Shown here piece by piece: positions 1,024-18,057 of a stretch of 34,282 bases of DNA (the first letter of the stretch is position 1; each line of letters begins with the position of its first letter). The DNA is from Pyrinomonadaceae bacterium (GTDB taxonomy: Bacteria > Acidobacteriota > Blastocatellia > Pyrinomonadales > Pyrinomonadaceae): NCBI GenBank assembly GCA_013816505.1, contig JACDEG010000005.1:1-34282 (forward strand). Direction: 5' to 3'. The notes beneath the pieces were generated by a model. The model made no database searches and had not been told where the DNA came from. It saw nothing but the letters and a program-made list of their open reading frames with translations. The translations under genes were made by a program, and so were the position numbers.

Positions 1024-1248
1024 TTAGAACATCAAGAAGATGTTCTGCAAGACGTTGATGAATACCTCCGTCGTCGCTTCGATGTCCGCGTCCTCGATCG
1101 GTTGCGGGCCAGCAGCAGGAAATCCCATGTTGCCAGCAACGGTCGGTGGCGGGTCGGCAGCAGGAAATCCCATGTTGCCAGCAAAAGTCGAAACGGCAAA
1201 TAAGCTCACTAAAAGGGTAGCACCGAATAATTTTTGGAAGCGTTTCAT
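1024..1248 (-). CDS. Small exported peptide with duplicated GNMGFPAA motif
   Basis: This encodes 74 residues. Residues 1-23 look like a Sec signal peptide (MKRFQK, then a hydrophobic stretch, ending STFA before GNM). The mature part has two copies of GNMGFPAA separated by a proline-rich spacer, then an acidic stretch (EDADIEATTE) and a hydrophobic end (VLQNIFLMF). The duplicated part is also near-identical as DNA: 28 bp exact at 1112-1139 and 1157-1184, period 45 bp. A good ribosome site (AGGAG) lies ahead of the ATG. The gene is divergent from the TPR/sigma-54 activator that starts at 1403. I do not recognise the family. An exported signalling peptide or small surface peptide would both fit; I infer the former from the neighbour only. 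Confidence 0.75.
   Translation of the reverse strand: MKRFQKLFGATLLVSLFAVSTFAGNMGFPAADPPPTVAGNMGFPAAGPQPIEDADIEATTEVFINVLQNIFLMF
1026..1046 (-). other. Stem-loop over the stop codon of the small peptide gene
   Basis: AGAACATC and GATGTTCT form an 8-bp perfect stem with a 5-base loop. The stem covers the last codons and touches the TAA stop. No U-tract follows on either strand, so it is not a standard intrinsic terminator; it could protect the 3' end of the mRNA. Confidence 0.4.
1112..1184. repeat. Intragenic direct repeat, 28 bp, two copies, 45-bp period
   Basis: An exact 28-bp match at 1112-1139 and 1157-1184 lies inside the small exported peptide gene and keeps the reading frame. It duplicates the GNMGFPAA peptide. 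Confidence 0.9.
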
Positions 1249-1325
1249 GGTCTGTATTCTCCTAAAGGTTAGAGTTTTGTCTGAGAGGGTTTGTGACTGC
1301 GACTGTAGAACCGAAGCAAATTGAC

Positions 1326-1340
1326 GCGGACATCATACCA
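1326..1340 (-). promoter_or_regulatory. Possible sigma-54-like -24/-12 element upstream of the small peptide gene
   Basis: On the minus strand this reads TGGTATGATGTCCGC, giving the invariant GG-N10-GC spacing of a sigma-54 promoter; the preferred TT before the -12 GC is CC here. It would start transcription about 65 bases before the peptide ATG. It lies between that gene and a divergent sigma-54 activator, which is why it is listed. Chance matches to GG-N10-GC are common, so confidence is low. Confidence 0.3.
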
Positions 1341-1402
1341 CCGATGAATAAGTCTTACACTTCTGCAAAAATCTTGCAATCGCTTAGAAAGGTATACTTC
1401 AC

Positions 1403-3673
1403 ATGAGTTTAGCTATTCAAGTCATTGAACTAGATGGTGCACTGACTTATGAGCGCGAGGCACGAGTCCACTCACTCTGCCAAACGGCCAGGGATTTTGA
1501 GATGGCTGGCGACTATGAATCGGCTCGTGAAACGTTGAGCGAGATTTGGCCGCAGTTTGATGAATGCCCGCACCTCGACGGGCTTGACCGGTTGACGACC
1601 GGAGAGGTGTTGCTGCGAGTGGGCGTCTTGACGGGTTATATCGGCAGTTCCAAACAAATCGCCGAGTCTCAAGAGGACGCTAAAAATCTAATTACCCAAA
1701 GCCTCACGGTTTTCGAAAGTCTGGGGGAGAAAGGAAGGGTCGCCGAGGCGTACTCGGATTTGGCCGTCTGCTATTGGCGCGAAGGCGCGTTTGACGAAGC
1801 CCGCGTGACGCTCGGTGAAGCTTACAAACGACTCGAAGATAGCAACCACGAACTGCACGCCAAGGCGCTGCTTCGTGGGGCCTTGATCGAACATTCGGCG
1901 AGCCGCCTTCACGACGCGCTGTCGATGTTGACCTATCACGTGAATCTCTTCAACTCTACCAACAATCACGCGCTGCAAGGTGGCTTTCACGGTCAGTTGG
2001 CGACAGTGCTGAAAGACCTCGGCTTCGCCGAGTTGCGGACGGATTACACCGATCGCGCGCTGATCGAGTTCGCCGCTGCGAGCTTCCATTTCGAACAAGC
2101 CGGACACACCCGCTACCGCGCGCGCGTCGAGAACAACCTCGGCTTTCTCTTCTGCACTACTGGCCAGTTCGCCAAGGCGCATGAACATCTTGATCGCGCG
2201 CAGAATATATTTGCCAGTCTGAGAGATCGGGGCAGCATCGCGCAAGTGGACGAGACGCGCGCCCGCACGTTTCTGGCTCAGGGACGTTATGCCGAGGCCG
2301 AAAGATTCGTTAAAGGTGCTGTCCAAGTGCTGCTGAAGGGCGGCGAGCAGTCGCTGCTGTCCGAAGCTTTGACCACTTACGGCCGCGCGCTGGCGCGCCT
2401 TGGACGTCACCAGAGCGCGCAACTGACCTTCGAGCAGGCAGCCGAAGTGGCGGAGCAGGCGGGCGACCCGAAGAGTGCCGGCGAGGCGCTGTTGACGACC
2501 CTCGAAGAGCTGGGCGACCGCCTCACGCATAACGAGTTTCGCATTGTCTACGAACGTGCTGACGATCTCCTGTCACACTCACAGCATCTCGGCATCCTCG
2601 CTCGCCTGCGCCACTGCGCGCGGCGCGTGCTCACGACGCACAAACGATCCGCAGAATATTTTGAGGCGCCCACATTCGTCCACGCTTCGGAGCAGACCGC
2701 GGCGCTGCTCAACGCGGCGCGCACCGTCTCGCTCACCGACGGCTGCGTGCTGCTGACGGGCGAGACCGGCACCGGCAAAGAGGTGTTGGCACGAGCGATT
2801 CACGGGTGGAGCGGACGGACGGGCAAGTTCGTAACGATCAACTGTGCGACTTTGACCGAGACGCTCTTCGAGTCGCAAATCTTCGGCCACCGCAAAGGCA
2901 GTTTCACTGACGCCATCGAAAATTACGAGGGCGCGGCGCGTACCGCCTCCGGCGGGACACTGTTCCTCGACGAAATCGCCGAACTCAGTCACCAAAACCA
3001 AGGCAAGCTGCTGCGGCTGATCGAGCGCAGAGAGGTTCTTTCCGTCGGCTCGCTCGTGCCTGAGACAGTCAACGTGCGCATCATCGCGGCGACCAATCGC
3101 GACATCAAGGGGATGGTCGCAACAGGGCTTTTCCGCGAAGACCTGTTCTACCGCCTGGAGACCTTTCATCTGACGGTGCCACCCCTGCGTGAACGCTGTG
3201 ACGACATTCCGGCTCTCGCCACGTACTTCATCGGCGAAACGCTCCGGCGACATGGCAAGCAGGTGACCTTCACGCCCGAAGCAATCACGGCGATGCGCAC
3301 GCTGCCGCTGAAGGGCAACGCGCGCGAGTTGCAATCGCTGATCGAGCGCACCGTGGTGACGGCGCCCGACGCGATGACAATCACTAAAGAGATGGTCGAA
3401 GTGATGGCTCTGCGCCAGACACACCGGGCTTGCTTTGCCGACCCGTGGCTCAATTTCTCGTTAAAGGAAGAAGTCAGCCACATCGAGCAACGCTTCATCG
3501 AGATGGCGCTCAAGGACGCAGACGGGATGGTCTCGCGTGCGGCGCGACTTCTCGGCTTTAAGTATCACGAGTCGCTGAACTCGCTGCTCAAACACAGATT
3601 CCCCCATCTTCTCGGAGCGCGCACGCCGGTCACGACACGTCGGCGCAGCATCATCCGCAGCAACGCGCTCTGA
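1403..3673 (+). CDS. TPR-AAA+-HTH sigma-54-dependent transcriptional activator
   Basis: This encodes 756 residues. Roughly residues 25-415 are tetratricopeptide-type helical repeats of about 40 residues (AYSDLAVCYWREGAFDEARVTL; NNLGFLFCTTGQFAKAHEHL). They take the place of a receiver, PAS or GAF domain. The AAA+ domain follows: Walker A GETGTGKE at 453-460, sigma-54 contact loop GSFTDA at 499-504 (consensus GAFTGA), Walker B TLFLDE at 519-524, and FRED at 577-580. A Fis-like HTH lies near 700-735 (SRAARLLGFKYHESLNSLL). AGAAAGG ahead of the ATG serves as ribosome site. The TPR block probably binds a protein or peptide ligand; the divergent secreted peptide gene is the obvious candidate, by inference. 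rpoN itself is in this window at 16468-18057. Confidence 0.93.
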   Translation: MSLAIQVIELDGALTYEREARVHSLCQTARDFEMAGDYESARETLSEIWPQFDECPHLDGLDRLTTGEVLLRVGVLTGYIGSSKQIAESQEDAKNLITQSLTVFESLGEKGRVAEAYSDLAVCYWREGAFDEARVTLGEAYKRLEDSNHELHAKALLRGALIEHSASRLHDALSMLTYHVNLFNSTNNHALQGGFHGQLATVLKDLGFAELRTDYTDRALIEFAAASFHFEQAGHTRYRARVENNLGFLFCTTGQFAKAHEHLDRAQNIFASLRDRGSIAQVDETRARTFLAQGRYAEAERFVKGAVQVLLKGGEQSLLSEALTTYGRALARLGRHQSAQLTFEQAAEVAEQAGDPKSAGEALLTTLEELGDRLTHNEFRIVYERADDLLSHSQHLGILARLRHCARRVLTTHKRSAEYFEAPTFVHASEQTAALLNAARTVSLTDGCVLLTGETGTGKEVLARAIHGWSGRTGKFVTINCATLTETLFESQIFGHRKGSFTDAIENYEGAARTASGGTLFLDEIAELSHQNQGKLLRLIERREVLSVGSLVPETVNVRIIAATNRDIKGMVATGLFREDLFYRLETFHLTVPPLRERCDDIPALATYFIGETLRRHGKQVTFTPEAITAMRTLPLKGNARELQSLIERTVVTAPDAMTITKEMVEVMALRQTHRACFADPWLNFSLKEEVSHIEQRFIEMALKDADGMVSRAARLLGFKYHESLNSLLKHRFPHLLGARTPVTTRRRSIIRSNAL

Positions 3674-16467: not shown

Positions 16468-18057
16468 CTAAACCACGGCGCGTCGTTCGCGAGAGCCTGG
16501 AATCTGCATCTGGTCGCGATATTTAGCGACCGTCCGGCGCGACAACCGAACTCCGTCTTTGGCTAAAATCTTAACCACCTGATCGTCGGTGATCGGATTG
16601 TGCGAGTCCTCTTCCTCAATCAACTTTTTGATCTTCAATTTTATGATGCGCGTCGAGACCTCTTCGCCGTCGTCGTTCATCATGCCTTCGGTGAAGAAGC
16701 GACGCAGCTCAATCACGCCCTGCGGCGTGTGAGTGTACTTGCGGTTGACGACGCGCGAGATGGTCGAAAGGTGCATCCCCGTATCCTCGGCGACATCCTT
16801 TAACATCATCGGTCTGATGAACTGCACGCCCTTGTCGAGGAACTCGCGCTGACGCCGCACGATGCACTCGACAACACGGTAGATCGTCTGGCGGCGGTGC
16901 TCGATGTTGCGCAGCAGATCGACGGCGGAGCGCATTTTATCTTTGATGAAGTCGCGCGTCTCTTTGCTCGTGTCGGCGCGGCCGAGCATCTGCTGGTAGC
17001 TATGGCTGACTCTCAGCCGCGGGCTGCCGTCATCCGCGAAGTAGATCACGTAATCGTCATCAATCTTTTCGATGAATACTTCGGGCGCAATCAGGATCGG
17101 CTCTTCCGACGAGTAGCGGCGGCCTGGGTACGGGTCAAGCGTGCGGATGCGATCCAACTCGGCGACTACCTCTTCGACACTGTGCCCGATCAGTTTAGCG
17201 AGGTTCGGCAGTTTGTGCTGCTGCATTTCGGCGAGCGGATGATCGCTAATCAGGCGGGCGGCGAGGGTGTCCAACTCACCGCGAACTTCCAATTGCACCA
17301 GCAGACATTCGCGCGGGTCGCGCGCGCCGCACCCCACCGGGTCGAGCCGCATCACCGACTGACGCGCTTCTTCGACCTCCTCGATGGTCCAACCGCCGAA
17401 CGCCGCAATCTCTTCGTTCGTCGCATTCAGGCGACCGTTCCCATCAAGGTTGCCGACTACCGCCTCGGCCACATCGAGCACCTTGTCGCTGACGTGGGTC
17501 ATGTGGAGTTGCCACGTCAGATGCTCGGAGAGCGATGGCGGGCGCGTCAAAAACTGCTCGAAGGTCGGGGCGTCCTCTTTGTACTCAAACTCCTGCGTCT
17601 TGTAGCCGGGGTCTAAGTACTCCTGAAATTCACGCCCAAAGTCGATCTCTTCAAATGCGTCGTGCGGCTCTTCGGTGCGCTCGGAGTCGTCTTCGCCGCC
17701 CTCTGAAGGTTGAACCGAGTCGGTGTCGCTCGCGTCGGTGCCGGCGGCGATCAACTCTCCTGTCGGTAACTCGCCGGAGCCGTTCCCCGAAGCGCCATTA
17801 AGTTCCGGCGCGAGACCTTCGAACACGGTCGGCTCGGCTTCGTTCGTACCACTGGCTAGCTGATCGAGAATTTTTTCTTCCAACTCAAGCTTCTCGGTCT
17901 GCCCTTCGACCTCTTCGAGCACTGGATTTTCCAGAAGCTGTTGCTGAATCAGATCGCTCAATTCGATGGTTGTCATCTGCAACATCTCGATGCGCTGCCG
18001 CAACTGCGGCGTCAACACGAGACGCTGTGAAAGGCTGGTGGTGAGCTTAACGGACAT
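16468..18057 (-). CDS. rpoN: RNA polymerase sigma-54 factor
   Basis: This encodes 529 residues. Region I is at about 1-50 ([26 protein letters not shown] in pieces, Gln/Leu-rich activator-contact part). A strongly acidic region II lies at about 50-130, then the core-binding and HTH domains ([16 protein letters not shown]). The RpoN box [10 protein letters not shown] sits near the C-terminus and reads the -24 element. It directs RNA polymerase to promoters opened only by AAA+ activators, such as the two at 1-615 and 1403-3673. GAAGG precedes the ATG. Confidence 0.98.

Follow-up and report, generated by a model that had tools for sequence, protein, structure and literature searches.

Published accounts place peptide-sensing regulators of the RRNPP type in Bacillota and in the mobile elements of these bacteria (PMC10075063, PMC9765709, PMC12700828). 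In the RRNPP(A) systems (Rap/Phr, Rgg/SHP, NprR/NprX, PlcR/PapR, PrgX and AimR/AimP) a small Sec-exported propeptide is encoded beside a cytoplasmic multi-TPR receptor, the peptide cores are short and diverse, several paralogues occur per genome and phages carry copies; some Phr propeptides also hold tandem pheromone copies (PMC11343458). Our literature search, in which subscription papers and preprints were sparsely covered, found no equivalent for Acidobacteriota. Two further groups of regulators share parts with the locus described here, namely the MalT/AfsR-type TPR regulators, in which a superhelix like MalT domain III is coupled to a DNA-binding output, and the NtrC-type enhancer-binding proteins, which combine an AAA+ Sigma54_activat domain with a C-terminal FIS HTH.

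Here, we analysed a stretch of 34,282 nucleotides from a Pyrinomonadaceae bacterium (hereafter the window; contig 187 of a 6.4 Mb assembly in 794 contigs), in which a small exported peptide and a TPR regulator are encoded divergently. The pair belongs to a large family that has not been described before and that shares the RRNPP(A) traits listed above. Compared to RRNPP(A), however, the family occurs in another phylum, the diderm Acidobacteriota; its output is C-terminal and exchangeable (FIS, FIS-REC, AAA+, HK-REC or GGDEF-EAL), rather than an N-terminal HTH or three-helix bundle; its receptors are ~470–890 aa long, vs 250–500 aa in RRNPP_detector (PMC10075063); its core opens the mature precursor, which also has a conserved hydrophobic C-terminal tail; and its gene order is strictly divergent. 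Unlike MalT/AfsR-type regulators, its members were found without a STAND-type NTPase and are paired with a secreted peptide precursor. Unlike NtrC-type proteins, with which the class of the window receptor shares its AAA+ and FIS domains, they have a TPR sensor and an altered GAFTGA motif, and most have lost or lack AAA+ altogether. In sequence searches with the TPR domain, NprR and RapI matched at 4e-6 to 1e-5 whereas kinesin light chain and designed TPRs matched better; since the best matches were generic TPRs, kinship with RRNPP is not proven. The family would work like RRNPP, but we did not place it there because the phylum and the N-terminal output differ. The pair looks like a chemical-messaging system new to this branch of life.

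Results

A precursor peptide gene and a TPR receptor gene diverge from a shared intergenic region

The precursor gene (74 aa; 1024–1248, minus strand, stop codon at 1024–1026; family profile E = 5.6e-16) and the receptor or regulator gene (756 aa, TPR-AAA+-FIS by ORF and Pfam analysis; 1403–3673, plus strand) are separated by 154 bp. The first-pass annotation had described a 74-residue exported peptide with two GNMGFPAA copies, head to head with a TPR activator, and both genes were located as it had placed them. On the minus strand, the precursor begins with a predicted Sec signal peptide, MKRFQKLFGATLLVSLFAVSTFA (residues 1–23; 1180–1248), assigned from its sequence and from the residue preceding the cleavage site across the family. 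The predicted cleavage site is followed by a first core, GNMGFPAA (1156–1179), that starts exactly there, the linker DPPPTVA, a second GNMGFPAA (1111–1134) and the remainder; both cores were defined by sequence and by a repeat test. The precursor ends in the hydrophobic tail EVFINVLQNIFLMF (1027–1068), of a type that the alignment shows to be common across the family. A motif scan placed a Shine-Dalgarno sequence, AGGAG, ahead of the gene (1259–1263, minus strand), and no Pfam family matched the peptide.

In the receptor, all on the plus strand, a TPR superhelix (residues 1–416; 1403–2650) that we propose as the peptide-sensing domain on the basis of AlphaFold2, Foldseek and co-variation is followed by an AAA+ domain of the sigma-54-activator type (residues 427–590; 2681–3172; PF00158, E = 2.4e-56 for the protein), an AAA lid (residues 596–666 by Pfam) and a Fis-type HTH (HTH_8, residues 694–718; 3482–3556). 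The last of these matched PF02954 weakly (21.1 bits vs a cut-off of 22) and is clearer in Pfam searches of relatives. Pfam also matched TPR_12, and neither a signal peptide nor a membrane segment was apparent in the receptor sequence. The TPR helices begin close to the receptor N-terminus, and the outputs sit C-terminally. The AlphaFold2 model of the TPR domain is a superhelix with a mean pLDDT of 94.3, and Foldseek aligned it with the RapF-PhrF peptide complex (4i9c; TM 0.65/0.72), with MalT domain III (TM 0.66/0.74) and with many other TPR proteins. Because TPR superhelices look alike, the fold match alone is weak.

Peptide and receptor genes occur together across one acidobacterial family

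We searched 15 related genomes independently with two profiles, one for the peptide and one for the TPR domain. A divergent TPR gene lay within 1.5 kb of 91 of 95 strong peptide-profile matches, and a peptide gene lay beside 82 of 87 full-length TPR genes. Thus, a peptide gene almost always adjoins the activator's relatives and is rarely found without a receptor, so the first-pass reading withstood both of the refuting observations that it had named. This reciprocal pairing, together with the repeats and the groove–core co-variation described below, lends strong support to its central idea of a TPR-peptide pair that resembles RRNPP but is independent of it.

We examined 119 genomes from the same family and found full TPR-domain relatives in 61, often several per genome. 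We read 136 non-redundant loci, nearly all of which had a divergent small ORF of the family plan; at six of the ~130 receptor loci whose upstream sequence was long enough to judge, no precursor could be recognised. The source genome itself holds about five TPR loci, each with a precursor, and at one of these, five GDLGTD copies are encoded beside a GGDEF-EAL receptor. Named relatives of the window were from Pyrinomonadaceae and other Acidobacteriota MAGs. Matches were confined to one acidobacterial family in searches of 396 phylum-level genomes, scoring four candidates per genome, and of 162 class-level genomes, scoring nine. A plasmid collection gave generic 26% TPR matches only.

More than one precursor gene, and up to three, occurs at several loci (L198, L190, L175, L110, L221 and L233).

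The precursors form a coding family with repeated cores at the predicted cleavage site

A peptide profile was built from 119 divergent ORFs and assessed by five-fold, cluster-separated cross-validation, in which all 119 precursors were recovered vs one weak match among 2,397 control ORFs. The family precursors share a plan consisting of a Sec signal, a core at the predicted cleavage site, a proline-rich linker and a hydrophobic C-terminal tail, and the residue at position -1 of the predicted cleavage site was alanine in 114 of 119. Core sequences differ between loci, mostly following A|G[DEN][IM]..., and the core is present one to five times, extra copies being frequent. Exact internal repeats of at least 4 aa were found in 55 of 119 mature regions, vs 4.6 expected from shuffles, and in 43 of these 55 precursors the repeat starts no more than 2 aa from the predicted cleavage site; the spacing of repeats varies among precursors. 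The suggestion in the first-pass annotation that the repeats represent several mature copies of a peptide fits these counts. Repetition is not universal in the family, since single-copy precursors exist.

GC-rich DNA commonly holds small ORFs, which would allow the precursors to be chance ORFs beside a TPR gene. We give this explanation a negligible probability and regard it as refuted by the cross-validated profile, the reciprocal pairing, purifying selection (dN < dS in 12 of 12 close pairs tested) and ribosome-binding sites (a Shine-Dalgarno-like motif ahead of 104 of 113 peptide start codons, vs 16% of control ATGs). Sequence statistics of this kind show computationally that the peptide ORF is a real coding gene. 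In 10 of the 12 close pairs, peptide dN was above receptor dN.

Residues of the TPR groove co-vary with the core

Groove positions were set before testing as positions 2, 5, 9, 12 and 13 of each inner helix, and were taken from the TPR consensus, by eye for some repeats. With similarity over the remainder of the TPR domain accounted for, groove similarity still predicted core similarity (partial r 0.259, z≈5), whereas 500 entropy-matched column sets gave 0.015 ± 0.049, with none of the 500 as high. The effect persisted among pairs of less than 60% identity, and the best three single columns (204, 122 and 197) were all groove positions. Co-variation with the groove was absent for the signal peptide (z 0.0 and 0.8), the linker (-1.0) and the tail (-0.9). 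Since groove residues co-vary with the core and not with these other parts, the GNMGFPAA-type core is very likely the ligand of the adjoining TPR receptor. Asn245 was invariant in 113 of 113 receptors; it occupies TPR position 6, where TPR clamps of the Hsp type have the Asn that binds the peptide backbone.

We consider it likely that the pair is a peptide-receptor signalling module, in which the core of the exported precursor binds the groove of the adjoining TPR domain and switches the output fused to it. The precursor is predicted to be exported by Sec and to be cut by signal peptidase directly ahead of the core GNMGFPAA, after which further proteolysis would release one or more core copies. 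These would act in the producer or in neighbouring cells, probably after re-import via an Opp-type permease; they would then bind, as the co-variation supports, in the concave TPR groove of the neighbouring receptor and so switch whatever output it carries. In the window, the AAA+-FIS protein probably binds a palindrome at 1364–1378 via its FIS helix-turn-helix, and the bound receptor would control the divergent peptide and receptor promoters as well as further targets. In this scheme we infer secretion, processing, re-import, binding, the sign of regulation and the role between cells. For cell-cell signalling the mature octapeptide must cross two membranes, because the cell is diderm. In RRNPP(A) systems, a mature peptide of 5–10 aa is taken back up by Opp and bound in the TPR groove. 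Opp-type binding proteins (SBP_bac_5) are present in the source genome, and next to the window pair we identified no exporter, protease or importer that would be dedicated to it.

The lack of an importer linked to the locus would suit a monitor of export, in which the TPR domain binds these core residues while they are still part of the unexported precursor, so that the regulator reports the state of Sec or of the envelope in its own cell, with no extracellular peptide acting. Such a monitor would also explain a cytoplasmic sensor without re-import, and its ligand would adjoin the signal peptide, as the core does. However, the core starts at the very point where signal peptidase is predicted to cut and recurs, at differing intervals, as many as five times, which fits the release of mature copies; the signal peptide and tail show no co-variation with the groove; and a monitor of this kind would not need hypervariable cores. 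We consider it unlikely.

The peptide accompanies the sensor and not the output

By Pfam, receptor outputs comprised Fis HTH, Fis HTH with REC, AAA+ with Fis HTH, HisKA/HATPase with REC, and GGDEF with EAL. With the unassigned domain described below, AAA+ is one of about six outputs in the receptor family. The TPR-domain tree, which came from a short search and has many weak forks, implied at least 16 output changes. The same pairing is seen with varied outputs across these changes; therefore, the peptide follows the sensor.

These combinations bear on whether the peptide might be a target only, that is, a peptide secreted as an antimicrobial, as an adhesin or for a structural role, its gene being controlled by a neighbouring regulator that senses something else. 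Shared regulation is common in divergent gene pairs, and a palindrome lies between the two genes in the window. Against this, receptors with a histidine-kinase or GGDEF-EAL output, in which no DNA-binding domain was detected and which have no palindrome, are accompanied by peptides in the same way, and the groove–core co-variation requires contact or some other joint constraint on those positions. We hold this explanation to be quite improbable and retain the peptide-receptor module.

A distant receptor branch (L212–L215, L221 and L233) has another C-terminal domain, S24/LexA-like by eye and without a Pfam match. The divergent peptides of this branch carry GNMGGGG-like repeats, with at most three in tandem. 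In the histidine-kinase class (L195, L197, L201, L203 and L204), intergenic regions are longer (367–502 nt among the lengths listed) and a precursor may hold as many as five cores in tandem.

The sigma-54 output is doubtful

The GAFTGA motif contacts sigma-54 (PMC7057263). In the window receptor, the corresponding loop reads GSFTDA (2897–2914, plus strand), such that the Ala and Gly of GAFTGA are changed while the central Thr is kept; Walker A and B are also kept (GETGTGK and TLFLDEI). The rpoN gene lies within the same window, where the RpoN DNA-binding domain was found at 16480–16953 on the minus strand (PF04552, E = 3.9e-57, in a 532-aa frame). It is thus possible that the peptide-bound TPR-AAA+ protein activates a sigma-54 promoter, perhaps its own, although we rate this as doubtful. 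The loop is eroded in some sister receptors (GSFAGA, GSFKDA, VAFGGA, EGFSER and GTFAES), and most of the family does without AAA+. A -24/-12 scan of 113 intergenic regions showed no enrichment in the AAA class (n = 15, five AAA+ proteins with a variant Walker A being left out), with mean best scores of 9.5 and 10.0 vs 9.1 in shuffled sequence. In the histidine-kinase class, regions before the peptide gene scored 11.8 vs 10.0 for sigma-54-like sites, with five regions being too few to interpret. Because the loop is altered here and decaying in sisters and no -24/-12 signal was seen in the shared promoter region, we did not accept a sigma-54 output as established. Thus, the TPR-peptide pair with a sigma-54 output that the first-pass annotation had proposed is strongly supported as a pair, whereas its sigma-54 part is weakly supported, given the GSFTDA loop and the lack of a convincing -24/-12 element.

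At positions 1–615 on the plus strand, the contig edge truncates a further activator of the sigma-54 type, of which the window keeps the 3' end.

A palindrome between the divergent genes is a candidate site for the Fis-type HTH

A palindrome scan identified the inverted repeat TGCAA-N5-TTGCA as a candidate operator (1364–1378); its core, GCAAAAATCTTGC (1365–1377), ends 25 nt ahead of the receptor start. A related palindrome, GCAAG-N3/4-CTTGC, occurs close to the receptor start in intergenic regions of the HTH-bearing classes. Matches of at least 9/10 were found in 33 of 107 intergenic regions vs 0.8 expected, and scores of at least 8 at 20–30 nt from the receptor start in 42 of 107 vs 3.9% elsewhere. 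At the six loci whose receptors lack an HTH (histidine-kinase and GGDEF-EAL), none had the palindrome at this position. Its location near the receptor start in DNA-binding classes suggests autoregulation, and these patterns suggest that binding of the Fis-type HTH to the shared-promoter palindrome is a better supported output than sigma-54. A search of the source genome for TGCAA-N5-TTGCA returned three sites, as many as the reversed control gave, which leaves no basis for assigning a regulon. A scan of 850–1450 for sigma-70 promoters and terminators found none.

Phage-borne copies, wider meaning and turnover of pairs

Nine contigs encoding the receptor were found in IMG/VR, and all nine carried a divergent peptide. 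The pair lies inside a phage head/packaging module in two of the nine (L277 and L282): in L277 it sits between terminase/DNA methyltransferase genes and genes for portal, minor head, head protease and major head proteins, and in L282 terminase and portal genes lie downstream. L278 carries the same pair as L277, upstream of a Mu-type portal gene, and an integrase gene lies beside the pair in L268, L273 and L285. Three entries are duplicates (L270 is the L277 contig with shorter flanks, L280 equals L268 and L283 equals L273), and the viral status of L279, L281 and L284 was taken from IMG/VR and weak context. No receptors of the distant branch were confirmed in viral contigs. As in the arbitrium system of Bacillus phages (AimR-AimP), a receptor-peptide gene pair is borne by phage; however, the receptor architecture differs, the L277 pair sits within the head/packaging module, no AimX-like part was identified, and any part in the control of lysis and lysogeny, which arbitrium exerts through AimX, would be hypothetical.

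These copies contribute to a broader proposal that we advance tentatively and put at slightly under an even chance, namely that a peptide language with several channels arose in a diderm phylum independently of RRNPP. Every genome would hold several private peptide-TPR pairs, in which a common sensor is joined to outputs that act in transcription, in a phosphorelay or on cyclic-di-GMP, and the phages of these bacteria would carry pairs of their own as in arbitrium. If true, TPR-pheromone signalling has more than one origin and can operate in cells with two membranes, in a family apparently unrelated to RRNPP and seated in abundant, hard-to-culture soil Acidobacteriota. The ~120 receptor-ligand pairs would be a natural series for reading TPR specificity, and would offer sensors portable onto kinases and c-di-GMP enzymes as well as candidate cases of peptide signalling by phages whose hosts are not Bacillota. 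The ligand to try is encoded at each locus, which makes specific and cheap tests possible.

L277 and L278 are related phage contigs from different metagenomes, and in both the pair adjoins the portal gene. Elsewhere, five receptor genes had internal stops or split frames (G131:C13, G126:C61, G126:C32, G126:C116 and G014:C78); with the exception of G014:C78, a peptide gene still adjoins each broken receptor, which suggests turnover of pairs.
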